From assembly GCA_027347545.1 (NCBI GenBank), contig DAIEQT010000244.1, positions 1 to 13,006 of the forward strand: 13,006 nucleotides of DNA, written 5' to 3'. Both the position numbers and the translations under genes were made by a program. The notes under the pieces are model-generated. The model saw only the letters and a program-made list of their open reading frames with translations, was not told the origin of the DNA and did not search any database. The stretch is from Ignavibacteria bacterium (GTDB lineage: Bacteria; Bacteroidota; Ignavibacteria; Ignavibacteriales; Melioribacteraceae). This document shows, in pieces, positions 6,035-13,006 of this stretch; within the stretch, counting starts at the first letter, position 1; each line of letters starts with the position of its first letter.

Positions 6035-7897
6035 ATGAATAGATCAATCCTTACCTTAATTACACTTCTTCTTATCACCCAACATACATTTTCACAAAGC
6101 TCAATTATGTTCACAGCAAAGATAGACGGAAGCCAGGAAGTTCCGGCAGTTACTACAACTGCAACCGGCACCGGTACTTTTGTCTTAAGCGCTAACGGAA
6201 CACAATTGACGTACAATATAACCGTTAACGGTTTAAGCGGAACGATCACCGGTTCACATTTTCACAATGCGGCTGTTGGATCTGGCGGTGGAGTAGTAAA
6301 AGCAATTGCCTTTACTGGAAATACAGCTTCTGGTGTTTGGACCAGCGCTGACGCAAATCAACCTTTAACGGATTTGCTGCTTAGCGAGTTGTTGAAGGGA
6401 AGGCTGTACGTAAATATTCATACATCGGCTAATGCTGGCGGAGAAATCCGCGGACAAGTATTGTTGAGCACCGGTGTGGGTTTTTCAGCTAAACTGGAAG
6501 GAAGCCAAGAAGTTCCTTCTGTTACTACAACCGCTTCCGGAACAGGGTCGGTCAGATTAAACACCGACGGTACAATAAGTTATGATGTTACAACCGCAGG
6601 ATTAACACCAACAGCAGCGCATTTTCACAACGCAGCGGCAGGAACAGCCGGCGGAGTTGCTAAATCAATTACTCTTACCAATAATACCAGCGCTGGAGTT
6701 TGGGCAAGCGGAGATGCTTCTCAACCACTAACTGATTTATTGCTTAGAGAATTGGTTAAAGGAAGATTATACATGAATGTTCACACTGCTGCTAATCCCA
6801 GCGGTGAAATTCGTGGGCAAGTGTTGTTGAACTCCGGTGCGGGCTTCACAGCAAAAATGGATGGAAGCCAGGAAGTTCCGGCTGTTACTACAACTGCTAC
6901 CGGCACAGGTTCGTTTGTCCTTAGCTTAAACGGAACACGATTGACATACAACATTACTGTTAATGGATTAACCGGAGCGATTACAGGTTCGCACTTTCAC
7001 AATGCTTCAGCAGGAGCTAGCGGCGGTGTTGTTAAAGCATTTATGTTCACCGGAAATACAGCTTCAGGTGTTTGGACTAGCTCAGACGCAAATCAACCTT
7101 TGACCGATTTGCTGCTTAGCGAGTTATTGAAGGGAAAACTGTACGTGAATGTTCACACATCTGCTAATGCCGGTGGAGAAATTCGCGGACAAGTATTGTT
7201 GAGTACCGGAATGGGATTTACAGCTAAGTTAGATGGTAGCCAAGAAACTCCAGCAATAACTACTACAGCTTCCGGCACAGGATCAGTTAGATTGAACACA
7301 GACGGTACAGTTAGTTATGATTTAACTGCCGGTGGATTAACACCAACGGCTGCGCACTTTCACAATGCGGCTGCCGGAATAAATGGTGGTGTTGCTAAAT
7401 CAATTACTCTAACTAACAATACAGCTTTGGGAATTTGGTCGAGTGTAGATGTTACTCAACCGCTAACTGATTTACTAATTAGAGAGTTGGTTAAAGGAAA
7501 ATTGTACATGAATGTTCACACATTAACAAATCCTGGCGGCGAAATACGTGGGCAGGTAATTAATTCTACAGATATTGCTACGGGTATAGAATCTAATGAT
7601 TCTCAAGAACTGCCTTCCCGTTTTGTACTCAGCCAGAATTATCCAAATCCATTTAATCCAACTACTGTAATCCAGTATATCGTTCCTTTCGAGAGCAGAG
7701 TGAACGTAACAATTTTCAATTCAATTGGACAAGTGGTGAAAACGTATAACGAGGGCAGCAAGAGTGCCGGCTCTTATTCTATAAAATTTAACGGCGAGCG
7801 GCTTGCCTCAGGTGTTTATCTTTATAACATCAGAGCATTCTCGTTAGACGGTAAACAAAACTTTCAAGCAACGAAAAAAATGTTGCTGATTAAATAA
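6035..7897 (+). CDS. Secreted four-CHRD-domain protein with type IX secretion sorting domain
   Basis: A 620-residue exported protein. The signal peptide is MNRSILTLITLLLITQHTFSQ. Four CHRD domains begin near residues 26, 150, 271 and 395, each about 120 long, with F-x-A-K-x-x-G-S-Q-E-(V/T)-P at the start, H-F-H-N in the middle (His75 and His77 in the first) and VHT...GGEIRGQV at the end. Domains 1 and 3 resemble each other, as do 2 and 4, giving an A-B-A-B order. CHRD domains are named from chordin and also occur in bacterial secreted proteins; their biochemical role is poorly known. Residues from about 529 to 620 are the Por/T9SS sorting domain, with YPNPFNP at 536-542, so the protein probably crosses the outer membrane and stays on the surface or is released. 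It has a strong ribosome site, AAAGGGG, 6 bases before ATG. It appears monocistronic, bracketed by terminators with a similar stem. Confidence 0.92.
   Translation: MNRSILTLITLLLITQHTFSQSSIMFTAKIDGSQEVPAVTTTATGTGTFVLSANGTQLTYNITVNGLSGTITGSHFHNAAVGSGGGVVKAIAFTGNTASGVWTSADANQPLTDLLLSELLKGRLYVNIHTSANAGGEIRGQVLLSTGVGFSAKLEGSQEVPSVTTTASGTGSVRLNTDGTISYDVTTAGLTPTAAHFHNAAAGTAGGVAKSITLTNNTSAGVWASGDASQPLTDLLLRELVKGRLYMNVHTAANPSGEIRGQVLLNSGAGFTAKMDGSQEVPAVTTTATGTGSFVLSLNGTRLTYNITVNGLTGAITGSHFHNASAGASGGVVKAFMFTGNTASGVWTSSDANQPLTDLLLSELLKGKLYVNVHTSANAGGEIRGQVLLSTGMGFTAKLDGSQETPAITTTASGTGSVRLNTDGTVSYDLTAGGLTPTAAHFHNAAAGINGGVAKSITLTNNTALGIWSSVDVTQPLTDLLIRELVKGKLYMNVHTLTNPGGEIRGQVINSTDIATGIESNDSQELPSRFVLSQNYPNPFNPTTVIQYIVPFESRVNVTIFNSIGQVVKTYNEGSKSAGSYSIKFNGERLASGVYLYNIRAFSLDGKQNFQATKKMLLIK
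6107..7576 (+). repeat. 735-bp tandem in-frame duplication (two CHRD A-B pairs)
   Basis: Equivalent codons of CHRD domains 1 and 3 (Phe at 6110 and 6845) and of domains 2 and 4 (6482 and 7217) are both exactly 735 bases apart. The gene therefore contains two direct copies of a 245-codon unit with no net length change. Nucleotide similarity is high in places, for example around 6354-6475 versus 7089-7210. This points to a fairly recent duplication of an already two-domain unit. Confidence 0.9.
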
Positions 7898-8082: not shown

Positions 8083-8110
8083 AACTACTAAATACTCACT
8101 ACTAATTACT
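8083..8110 (-). repeat. AT-rich heptad array at the cytochrome c stop codon (4 units)
   Basis: On the minus strand the units are AGTAATT, AGTAGTG, AGTATTT and AGTAGTT, then AGAC. The TAA stop codon of the cytochrome gene (8108-8106) lies inside the first unit. The array ends 7 bases before the terminator stem. Confidence 0.8.
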
Positions 8111-8522
8111 TGGTAAGAAGATAGTCAGCAATCTTGCCAAGGTTTTTAACATCAACATTATTGTAAGATGGCATAACTACGTTTTTGAATTTAGATTTAT
8201 ATTCAACAAACCTTTCATCAGAACCAAATGAAGATGGATTACGCAGGTAGTTTATTAACTTATCGCGTGACCAGTATTCTTTAAGTCCGGCAAGTGCCGG
8301 CGCCATTTTTGTACCTTGTAAATTAGATCCATGACAAGTAACACAGCCGGTTTGCCTCATTAAACTGAGTCCGTCTGTTTCTTGTGCTGCTTGTTGCGAT
8401 TGCTGCATCATTTGCATAGACATCGCTTCCGTTCCGTCATCTTTCTTAGTTACTCTTCCAAGTATAAGTAGAATTAGAAATAGCCCTAGAAAAGCAGCCA
8501 TCCATTTTTGTGCATTGGTCAT
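8106..8522 (-). CDS. Membrane-anchored monohaem cytochrome c
   Basis: A 138-residue c-type cytochrome from the Met at 8522. The N-terminal hydrophobic segment (about residues 8-22, WMAAFLGLFLILLIL) is an uncleaved anchor or signal. A Met/Gln-rich linker (34-48) follows, then a single class I cytochrome domain with C-V-T-C-H (Cys60, Cys63, His64). Met117 in VVMPSYNN is the probable sixth haem ligand. It should carry electrons in the periplasm, held to the inner membrane. A longer reading frame begins at 8600, but that ATG and the first codons lie inside a heptad repeat, whereas Met8522 has AGAAAGG 8 bases upstream, so the short start is chosen. The stop codon is part of another heptad array. 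No oxidase or reductase partner is visible nearby. Confidence 0.9.
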   Translation of the reverse strand: MTNAQKWMAAFLGLFLILLILGRVTKKDDGTEAMSMQMMQQSQQAAQETDGLSLMRQTGCVTCHGSNLQGTKMAPALAGLKEYWSRDKLINYLRNPSSFGSDERFVEYKSKFKNVVMPSYNNVDVKNLGKIADYLLTK

Positions 8523-8587
8523 TCGTAAAACCTTTCTAATAAATTTGTGGTGCAAAGTTAGGTATAAGATGTACATAACTGCAAAGA

Positions 8588-8620
8588 GGCTTTCAGCCAT
8601 CGGCGGTCAGCTATCAGCTT
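8588..8620 (+). repeat. GC-rich heptad array, left (4.5 units)
   Basis: Plus-strand units are GGCTTTC, AGCCATC, GGCGGTC and AGCTATC, then AGCTT; the consensus is RGCNNTC. It lies upstream of the cytochrome c gene and covers the false upstream ATG at 8600. It is inverted relative to the array at 8676-8717, with which GGCGGTC-AGCTATC-AGC can pair, with two mismatches in 17 bases. Confidence 0.8.
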
Positions 8621-11679: not shown

Positions 11680-12279
11680 ATGGGCTTTAGTACATTAATA
11701 GACATATTGGGTTCTACAATAGTTGGCGGTATGCTGCTTATGATACTTTTCCGTTTAAATGATGCGGCTACTCAAAATACATATAATTATGGTGCAGATC
11801 TTATAGTCCAACAAAGCTTAGTTGAGGTAGTCCAGTTGCTTGAATACGATTTTAAGAAGGTTGGCTATTGTAGAGATTGGACAAAAATTCCCGACCCATC
11901 TCAGGCAATATTATTAGCTGATTCTACCAGAGTAAGATTTTTAACTGATACGGATAATGATAGCAATGTTGATACTATGTATTACTATGTTGGTCTGCCA
12001 GATTCTCTTTCGGGCACTCCTAATCCAAGAGATAGAATGTTGTACCGTGTGGTTAACCACGATACACCGGGAAGCGCAAATCTAGGTATAACACAATTCC
12101 GGTTAAATTATTTTAATGCACTTGGTCAACAAATGAGCTTCCCAATTTCAAATCTTTCACAAATACAAACCATTCAACTTAGTATTACAGTTGAAAGCAG
12201 TTATGCTTACGCGAATGATTATTCAAAAGTATTCTGGAGACAAATTCGTCTTGCAGCTAGAAATTTAAGGAACAGGTGA
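11680..12279 (+). CDS. Pilin/pseudopilin-like protein (PilW-like), second gene of operon
   Basis: A 199-residue protein. The N-terminus Met-Gly-Phe-Ser-Thr-Leu-Ile-Asp-Ile-Leu-Gly resembles the prepilin site G|FTLIE but with one residue inserted and Asp for Glu, after a leader of only Met-Gly. The hydrophobic helix runs from about residue 5 to 25. It is followed by LIVQQSLVEVVQLLEYDFKKVGYCRDW (about 42-68), which matches the PilW/GspJ pattern in which a long N-terminal helix leads into '...LEyDlr.aGy'. The rest is beta-rich, with DADND-type acidic turns (TDTDNDSNVDT, about 88-98) and a final WRQIRLAARNLRNR. The LxxDFxxxGY feature is the best evidence for a minor pilin role. Tight coupling to the genes on both sides fits a minor pilin set such as pilV-pilW-pilX. 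Confidence 0.68.
   Translation: MGFSTLIDILGSTIVGGMLLMILFRLNDAATQNTYNYGADLIVQQSLVEVVQLLEYDFKKVGYCRDWTKIPDPSQAILLADSTRVRFLTDTDNDSNVDTMYYYVGLPDSLSGTPNPRDRMLYRVVNHDTPGSANLGITQFRLNYFNALGQQMSFPISNLSQIQTIQLSITVESSYAYANDYSKVFWRQIRLAARNLRNR
12274..12279 (+). promoter_or_regulatory. Shine-Dalgarno AGGTGA overlapping the stop codon
   Basis: AGGTGA contains the TGA stop of the second pilin-like gene and lies 4 bases before the ATG at 12284. It repeats the arrangement at 11671-11676. Confidence 0.65.
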
Positions 12280-12283
12280 AACT

Positions 12284-13006
12284 ATGGGCGGCAAAGCAGC
12301 AATACTTTTAGTTCTCGGTTTTAGTATGATATTCCTTGTTGTTGGGCAAAATTTTCTTGGAATAACGAATAGAGCTGTAGATAATGTTGGTAAGTATTAC
12401 AATGATACTCAGGCTTATAATATTGCCGTTGCAGGAGCAAATATGGCGGCTAATGCAATATTCATGGATAAAACTTGGGAAGTCGGTTATGATAATTTGA
12501 GTTTTGCCGGTGGAACAATAGACGTTTATGTTTCAAATCCACAAGGTGTATCGAGCGGTAGAGTTACTATCTGTCATCGCCCTCCCGGTAATCCGGCAGG
12601 ACAAAAAACACTATCAATACCTTCGTCTGCTGTGGCAGCACACATGGCTCACGGAGATGCAATGGGTGCTTGCGGCAGCGAGACAGTTGATAACACAATG
12701 GCTACAATAGTAGCTGAAGGAACATTTAATAATATTACCAAAGTAATTAGTGTTCAGTTAAGACCAAGCAATTTTGCAAAGTTTGGGAACTACTATTCTT
12801 CAATTAGCGCTATGCCTGCTACCGGCGATACATTTCATGGACCATTTCATGTTAATGGGACTCTTTCTACTTGGGGCTCCCCGGTCTTTTTAGGCAAAGC
12901 TTCATCTAAAGGTGGATTAAGTAAATATGGCAGCGGCAATCCTGTTTTTAATGCCGGTTACCAGACAGGTGTTGATGTACCTCTTCAATTTGATACTACC
13001 GGTTTA
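12284..13006 (+). CDS. Pilin-like (PilX-position) protein with embedded Cys/His module, partial at right edge
   Basis: An open frame of 241 codons that reaches the window edge without a stop, so the C-terminus is missing. Met12284 has AGGTGA 4 bases upstream. The N-terminus Met-Gly-Gly-Lys-Ala-Ala leads into a hydrophobic helix (about 5-21, ILLVLGFSMIFLVVG), then a helix with YYNDTQAYNIAVAGANMAANAIF (about 39-61), as in PilX/GspK-type minor pilins. Between two beta stretches lies a compact module at about 93-132 with Cys97-His98-Arg-Pro-Pro-Gly-Asn-Pro, His120, His123-Gly-Asp and Cys130. Downstream, ISAMPATGDTFHGPFHVNGTLSTWGSPVFLGKASSKGG looks like the beta-helix start of surface filaments or adhesins. 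It was probably missed by ORF callers because no stop lies in the window. It is the third gene of the putative minor pilin operon. Family not recognised with certainty. Confidence 0.7.
   Translation, partial: MGGKAAILLVLGFSMIFLVVGQNFLGITNRAVDNVGKYYNDTQAYNIAVAGANMAANAIFMDKTWEVGYDNLSFAGGTIDVYVSNPQGVSSGRVTICHRPPGNPAGQKTLSIPSSAVAAHMAHGDAMGACGSETVDNTMATIVAEGTFNNITKVISVQLRPSNFAKFGNYYSSISAMPATGDTFHGPFHVNGTLSTWGSPVFLGKASSKGGLSKYGSGNPVFNAGYQTGVDVPLQFDTTGL
12560..12679 (+). other. CHRPPGNP...H..HGD...C module (possible metal-binding insert)
   Basis: Codons 93-132 of the third pilin-like gene. Key residues are Cys97, His98, Pro100-Pro101-Gly102-Asn103-Pro104, Ser115-Ala116-Val117, His120, His123-Gly124-Asp125 and Cys130. 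The pattern I-C-H-x-P-P-G-N-P...T-(I/L)-x-(V/I)-x-x-S-A-V-x-A-H-(L/M)-x-H-G-D-x-x-G-x-C recurs in many secreted bacterial proteins I know from memory. I know no accepted name or function for it. Two Cys and three His would suffice for a metal site (inference). Confidence 0.75.

Follow-up and report, generated by a model that had tools for sequence, protein, structure and literature searches.

A 38-residue Cys/His module inserted into a predicted ComZ-like pilin of Ignavibacteria and recurring in apparently secreted proteins of bacteria and archaea

What does a compact block of cysteines and histidines do in the middle of an otherwise ordinary pilin-like protein? The question is raised by the last open reading frame (ORF) of a window of 13,006 nucleotides, the entire contig DAIEQT010000244.1 (here C486) of an Ignavibacteria bacterium whose assembly, GCA_027347545.1, comprises 530 contigs and is 75% complete. 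In our view the chances are roughly even that the block forms a disulfide-closed binding knob with a metal site, carried by a ComZ-like pilin at the filament tip. The positions of the ORF, of the module and of its key residues are given below.

12284..13006, + strand: ORF of the pilin with the module, ComZ-like by predicted fold; it runs past the contig end and was completed from contig C513 to about 461 amino acids
12560..12673, + strand: 38-residue Cys/His module, residues 93 to 130 (model positions 1 to 38), recognized by its profile, its invariant columns and a beta-beta-alpha fold predicted by AlphaFold2
12572..12574, + strand: Cys97 (model C5), putative disulfide partner of Cys130
12575..12577, + strand: His98 (model H6), putative ligand
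12641..12643, + strand: His120 (model H28), putative ligand
12650..12652, + strand: His123 (model H31), putative ligand
12656..12658, + strand: Asp125 (model D33), putative ligand; in four Planctomycetota modules without the Cys pair, Cys stands here instead
12671..12673, + strand: Cys130 (model C38), putative disulfide partner of Cys97

Conservation of the module and its insertion into the pilin family

Positions 12560 to 12679 encode residues 93 to 132, RVTICHRPPGNPAGQKTLSIPSSAVAAHMAHGDAMGACGS. Among the 241 visible residues of the ORF, Cys occurs only at 97 and 130, and His occurs at 98, 120, and 123 inside the block and at 185 and 189 outside it, in agreement with an earlier note on this DNA, which had listed these five block residues and no further Cys in the visible part. 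On C513 the reading frame goes on to a stop codon, and this part of the protein contributes one extra Cys, the place of which is taken by Gly in the nearest relative. The window module is 44 to 89% identical to the other pilin modules, and the module of an unrelated Cyclobacteriaceae protein matches it at 68% over 38 amino acids; all 14 aligned pilin modules have C5, H6, H28, H31, G32, D33, G36, and C38 without exception. For these reasons the block is not deemed a chance product, and its conservation across genera rules out a chance or frameshift artefact.

All five Cys/His residues are present in 20 of the 21 distinct block-bearing pilins (20 tree rows plus the window); in the exception, L018, Tyr and Lys replace the second and third His and the block is still there. 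The signature proposed in the earlier note therefore stands in its Cys/His part, while its extent of 40 residues has to be shortened to the conserved 38 and its PPGNP loop, absent or changed in L011, L015, and L016, is not essential for the module. A signature centred on PPGNP was ruled out, since several members without it still have the Cys/His residues.

Searching 58 genomes, from the same genus out to the same order, we found homologues of the pilin in 48. Those bearing the block, about 460 to 484 amino acids long, match residues 1 to 241 continuously; those without it, mostly frames of about 404 to 455 amino acids, give two separate matches, one to residues 1 to about 84 and one to about 139 to 241. 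Eleven block-less proteins, among them L030, which is cut by a contig end, have a short turn at the block site, and in several genomes (G015, G021, G023, G025, and G028) pilins of both kinds adjoin each other. Block-less homologues thus exist, and the block-bearing ones keep the Cys/His pattern, so that the first refuting check named in the earlier note was decided for it; judged from these alignments, the block is a clean insertion in the pilin family.

In a tree of 36 pilins built with the block removed, a fully supported branch groups 19 of the 20 block-bearing rows with two block-less rows, and the remaining block-bearing row, L018, sits among block-less ones. For the tree and the Cys/His tally the block-bearing label was assigned by motif, and lengths also split the two classes (458 to 481 versus 406 to 434 amino acids). 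The best topology has three presence/absence changes and, because the well-supported branches require at least two, loss of the block plus a second gain or a transfer is likely.

To which type of pilin the module was added was approached by fold prediction. AlphaFold2 modelling of the full-length relative L034 (first sequence of the profile A4, whose residue numbers run one ahead since it began one codon early) gave a helix at residues 3 to 62 and strands at 70 to 75, 78 to 85, 141 to 149, and 152 to 160, with a predicted local distance difference test score (pLDDT) there of about 45 to 66. Foldseek returned ComZ, the competence-associated pilin of Thermus thermophilus (PDB 6qvi), as the best PDB match (E value, 3.2e-8), so that by its nearest predicted fold the host would be a ComZ-like pilin. 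ComZ is argued to be a tip pilin and is shown to bind DNA in the abstract and the parts of the Results and Discussion of PMC6561018 on which we rely. The pilin host of the earlier note is thereby given a candidate type, and a position of the module-bearing pilin at the tip seems to us somewhat more probable than one elsewhere.

The likeness to ComZ would lie in a long first helix, a pilin sheet, and a beta-solenoid, all of them predicted (in ComZ-like tip pilins the solenoid precedes the last pilin strand), and further in the clustering among other pilin-like genes and in an N terminus that is no clear class III signal. The window-type pilin differs in that its predicted strands 2 and 3 are separated by an additional Cys/His module of 38 residues; no such insertion is described in the same parts of PMC6561018. 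They also describe the tip pseudopilins of the GspK type from type II secretion, in which an alpha-helical insertion lies between strands 3 and 4, whereas the window pilin has its module after predicted strand 2, ahead of strand 3, and the predicted solenoid after strand 4. Residues 180 to 209 of the window protein resemble DUF4900 (PF16241), a family that 12 of 79 module hosts also match at an E value of ≤0.01, but the window match of 19.4 bits is below the gathering score of 29.4 and does not cover the module; the name DUF4900 was not found in the open-access literature searched.

An unnamed family in bacteria and archaea

A pattern that demanded HxxHGD gave 316 matches in the genome collection searched and 185 relatives, of which the best 80 were taken. 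Relatives come from the bacterial groups Bacteroidetes, Ignavibacteriae, Acidobacteria, Planctomycetota, Chloroflexi, Omnitrophota, Gemmatimonadetes, Deltaproteobacteria, Nitrospinae, Fibrobacteres, Acetothermia, and Lentisphaerae and from the archaeal Pacearchaeota, Nitrosocosmicus, and Nitrosopumilales, the taxa being those of record titles of mostly metagenome assemblies, in which some misbinning is possible. The nearest named relative, at 89% module identity, belongs to a metagenome-assembled genome of Stygiobacter. The module is also encoded on haloarchaeal plasmids, of Halorussus limi (an isolate with a complete plasmid) and of Haladaptatus halobius (L130 and L132). By profile, it was found in the window's phylum in 36 of 395 genomes, in the phylum of a Nitrosopumilales genome in 13 of 300, and in that of a Planctomycetota genome in 12 of 294, each tally including the module-bearing genome on which it was centred. 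One Deltaproteobacteria genome (that of L070) has 24 copies, and a profile of the stand-alone form matched 3173 short proteins (120 of them listed) among 8000 scored candidates.

The hosts include proteins of 70 to 90 amino acids, barely more than a signal peptide and the module, as well as tandem arrays, type IX secretion proteins, and Tad-like proteins; a stand-alone form of 72 amino acids occurs in Flavobacteriaceae. The compact island that the earlier note ascribed to unrelated secreted proteins is indeed found in unrelated proteins with secretion-type N termini. In the proteins scanned, no model of Pfam, NCBIfam, or PHROGs reached its cut-off over the module, and the PDB searches made gave no convincing chain match for it. 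Among the 79 hosts scanned with Pfam (of 87, those over 1300 amino acids being left out), matches at an E value of ≤0.01 comprise DUF4900, N_methyl (3 hosts), T2SSG (2), and Tad/TadE (3), and none of the 25 families listed, out of 37, covers more than 12 of the 79, although every host has the module. This sample is biased, the query having come from pilin modules. In Planctomycetota, pseudopilin-like proteins with a prepilin-type N terminus carry the same module, but in another phylum, another pilin family, and at another insertion point; 5 of 10 candidate module-bearing proteins of Planctomycetota or Omnitrophota (L244, L240, L056, L058, and L238, the last over its first 111 frame residues only) passed the cut-off of TIGR02532, the prepilin-type N-terminal domain. 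From these comparisons, the module is an unnamed family of many bacterial phyla and of archaea. Thousands of proteins have this module, which no library searched names, and one structure together with a metal assay would annotate them.

Several hosts carry the module as the extreme C terminus or right after the signal peptide, as judged by eye, which would suit a tag by which secreted proteins are processed, sorted, or anchored, in place of a knob that binds a ligand. We regard such a tag as very unlikely, given that the module also occurs in mid-protein in the pilins, in tandem copies, and in archaea, and that 5 of 79 hosts have a separate type IX sorting tail.

As a side observation, sixteen loci in a virus collection (IMG/VR contigs, L114 to L129) encode the module; L114 couples it to collagen repeats, which in turn match families of phage tail fibres.

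The Cys pair, the His set, and the candidate binding knob

For the module, AlphaFold2 predicts a beta-beta-alpha fold with a pLDDT of 95.8. Variation was tallied in 302 complete distinct modules, obtained from 420 rows (315 distinct) after removal of 13 cut-off or partial rows. Both C5 and the downstream Cys are present in 295, C5 alone in 2, neither in 5, and the downstream Cys alone in none, and the set of three His is complete in 298, with three lost in 2, two in 1, and one in 1. The p-values of this tally overstate the case, as related sequences are counted as independent; the pattern holds after clustering at 80% (163 clusters). The distance from D33 to the second Cys is 5 to 19 positions, depending on the member, if 29 rows at 1 or 2 positions are taken as artefacts in which a second GD adjoins a Cys. 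The five Cys-less modules are paralogues in one Planctomycetota genome (G965), and all five retain the three His, while four have Cys in place of Asp33. This genome holds nine copies, three intact, five without the Cys pair, and one with both Cys but without the three His and Asp, in hosts (L226, L234, L238, and L240 to L245) of which eight show what we read as a prepilin-like N terminus.

The Cys pair and the His set thus appear to be two separable parts, and their separate losses fit a disulfide plus an independent ligand site. A disulfide between C97 and C130 is very probable, the Cys pair being lost jointly and the small fold being predicted with confidence, and in this respect the disulfide-locked knob of the earlier note gains ground. 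Its suggestion of haem binding does not: the haem-attachment motif CXXCH is absent from all 21 block-bearing pilins, including that of the window. On electron transfer, which the note also raised, the analysis turned up no evidence in either direction. That the Cys pair and the His set are naturally split also points to informative mutants.

We propose, on this basis, that the block would be an autonomous extracellular mini-domain of 38 residues inserted in the loop between predicted strands 2 and 3 of the sheet of a ComZ-like tip pilin. The Cys97-Cys130 disulfide would close it, and His98, His120, and His123 together with Asp125 would make up a site apart from the disulfide, with a single divalent metal ion as its likeliest occupant; for a His3/Asp metal site as such we see an even balance. 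Placed at the filament end or close to it, the knob could use this site to bind a surface, polymer, or ligand as its target, and a binding role for the module is in our judgement about as likely as not.

The beta-beta-alpha order with Cys and His predicted by AlphaFold2 resembles small zinc folds, in which case all five Cys/His residues would bind one metal with the thiols as ligands and no disulfide would form. This is improbable, since losses of the Cys pair occur independently of losses of the His set, the position of the second Cys varies, and the protein is predicted to be extracytoplasmic; paired Cys outside the cytoplasm normally oxidise.

Small disulfide domains often do without a metal, and the module could instead be a structural knob in which the disulfide and a hydrogen-bond network of the His hold the fold while variable surface residues bind. 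In favour of this are L018, which has both Cys after losing two His, and L238 and L156, in which the domain persists without all three His. We consider it less likely, yet worth serious attention; the Cys-less modules, five of five in one genome, retain the three His, so that conservation of the His does not depend on the disulfide.

Several points weigh against the metal-binding knob on a ComZ-like tip pilin that we favour. The Foldseek match to ComZ has a TM-score of just 0.29 and a root-mean-square deviation of 15.7, residues 1 to 160 of the full-length model, module included, have pLDDT values of about 45 to 66 by ten-residue blocks, and the A4 profile matched no ComZ chain among PDB sequences at an E value of ≤10, so that the likeness is one of predicted fold only. 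All five Cys-less modules being in one genome, few independent events are involved, and their hosts contain other Cys, with which the Cys at position 33 could form a disulfide. L018 retains its block with two His gone. Finally, detection was biased to conserved residues, by the HxxHGD pattern first and by profiles later.

Filament machinery, a mostly undetected prepilin peptidase, and gene neighbourhood

The pilin ORF is preceded by two further pilin-like genes of a conserved three-gene cluster and runs off the window through a contig overlap.

11125..11676, + strand: first pilin-like gene of the cluster, starting with MNTGQMLITIGA
11680..12279, + strand: second pilin-like gene of the cluster, starting with MGFSTLIDILGS
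12984..13006, + strand: exact overlap of 23 bases with the end of contig C513, on which the gene carries on

A genome of the same genus encodes the whole visible pilin ORF at 96%, and the second gene of the cluster is found in 35 of 39 genomes. The PF00437 assembly ATPase, as a PilB/PilT-type pair, is present in 13 of 13 genomes, including the window's own; in the same-genus genome G001, the sole such locus with neighbours scanned, genes for the T2SSF platform protein and a secretin adjoin it, which completes the set expected of a type IV filament machine. The prepilin peptidase PF01478 was detected in 3 of 39 genomes, with 0 of 6 in the window's genus, and N_methyl in 3 of 39; among 14 known genomes used as controls, they were found in 12 and 8, respectively. 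The window's own genome, at 75% completeness, gave no match to PF01478, PF06750, or N_methyl. The PF06750 search gave two strong matches and five weak partial ones of 22 to 24 bits, the latter taken as chance. In G007 and G036 the peptidase adjoins an additional PF00437 gene and therefore probably serves a second, canonical system. From these profile searches, the lineage seems to have kept the pilus ATPase pair with the prepilin peptidase mostly undetected, and a divergent peptidase is possible.

The starts of the genes bear on the same point. In the window pilin, an in-frame stop lies 5 codons before the ATG with no ATG, GTG, or TTG between, and 81 of 84 distinct cluster pilin-like genes, picked by the conserved start pattern and having a stop within 150 codons upstream, likewise have none of these codons from the preceding in-frame stop to the conserved start. 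The class III leader cut by prepilin peptidase has 6 to 26 residues according to an excerpt of PMC4471445, and such a leader is thus impossible with ATG, GTG, or TTG. A canonical type IV subunit is recognized by a class III leader together with a prepilin peptidase, and neither was found for the window pilin. In excerpts of the Melioribacter roseus genome paper (PMC3534657), pilT, pilQ, pilB, and pilC are reported as present and pilA and pilD as absent; pilins made ready-cut, if true, would explain this report, and much of a bacterial order would then depart from the rule that type IV filaments need a prepilin peptidase. No paper on such filaments was found in listings and passages of the open-access literature searched. 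It is doubtful, in our estimate, that all of this would combine into an undescribed His3-Asp metal-binding plug-in receptor knob of bacteria and archaea, inserted more than once into subunits of type IV filaments in different phyla and, in Ignavibacteriota, displayed at the tip of a filament of leaderless, prepilin-peptidase-independent pilins.

Upstream of the pilin cluster, the window encodes a cytochrome c domain protein (8106 to 8600, - strand), and cytochrome c-type neighbours, as judged by eye, adjoin the cluster in several relatives too. Positions 6035 to 7897 encode a protein of 620 amino acids that combines four CHRD domains with a type IX secretion tail. In G028, an additional unexplained ORF (L166, 11390 to 11935) lies immediately 3' of the module-bearing pilin.
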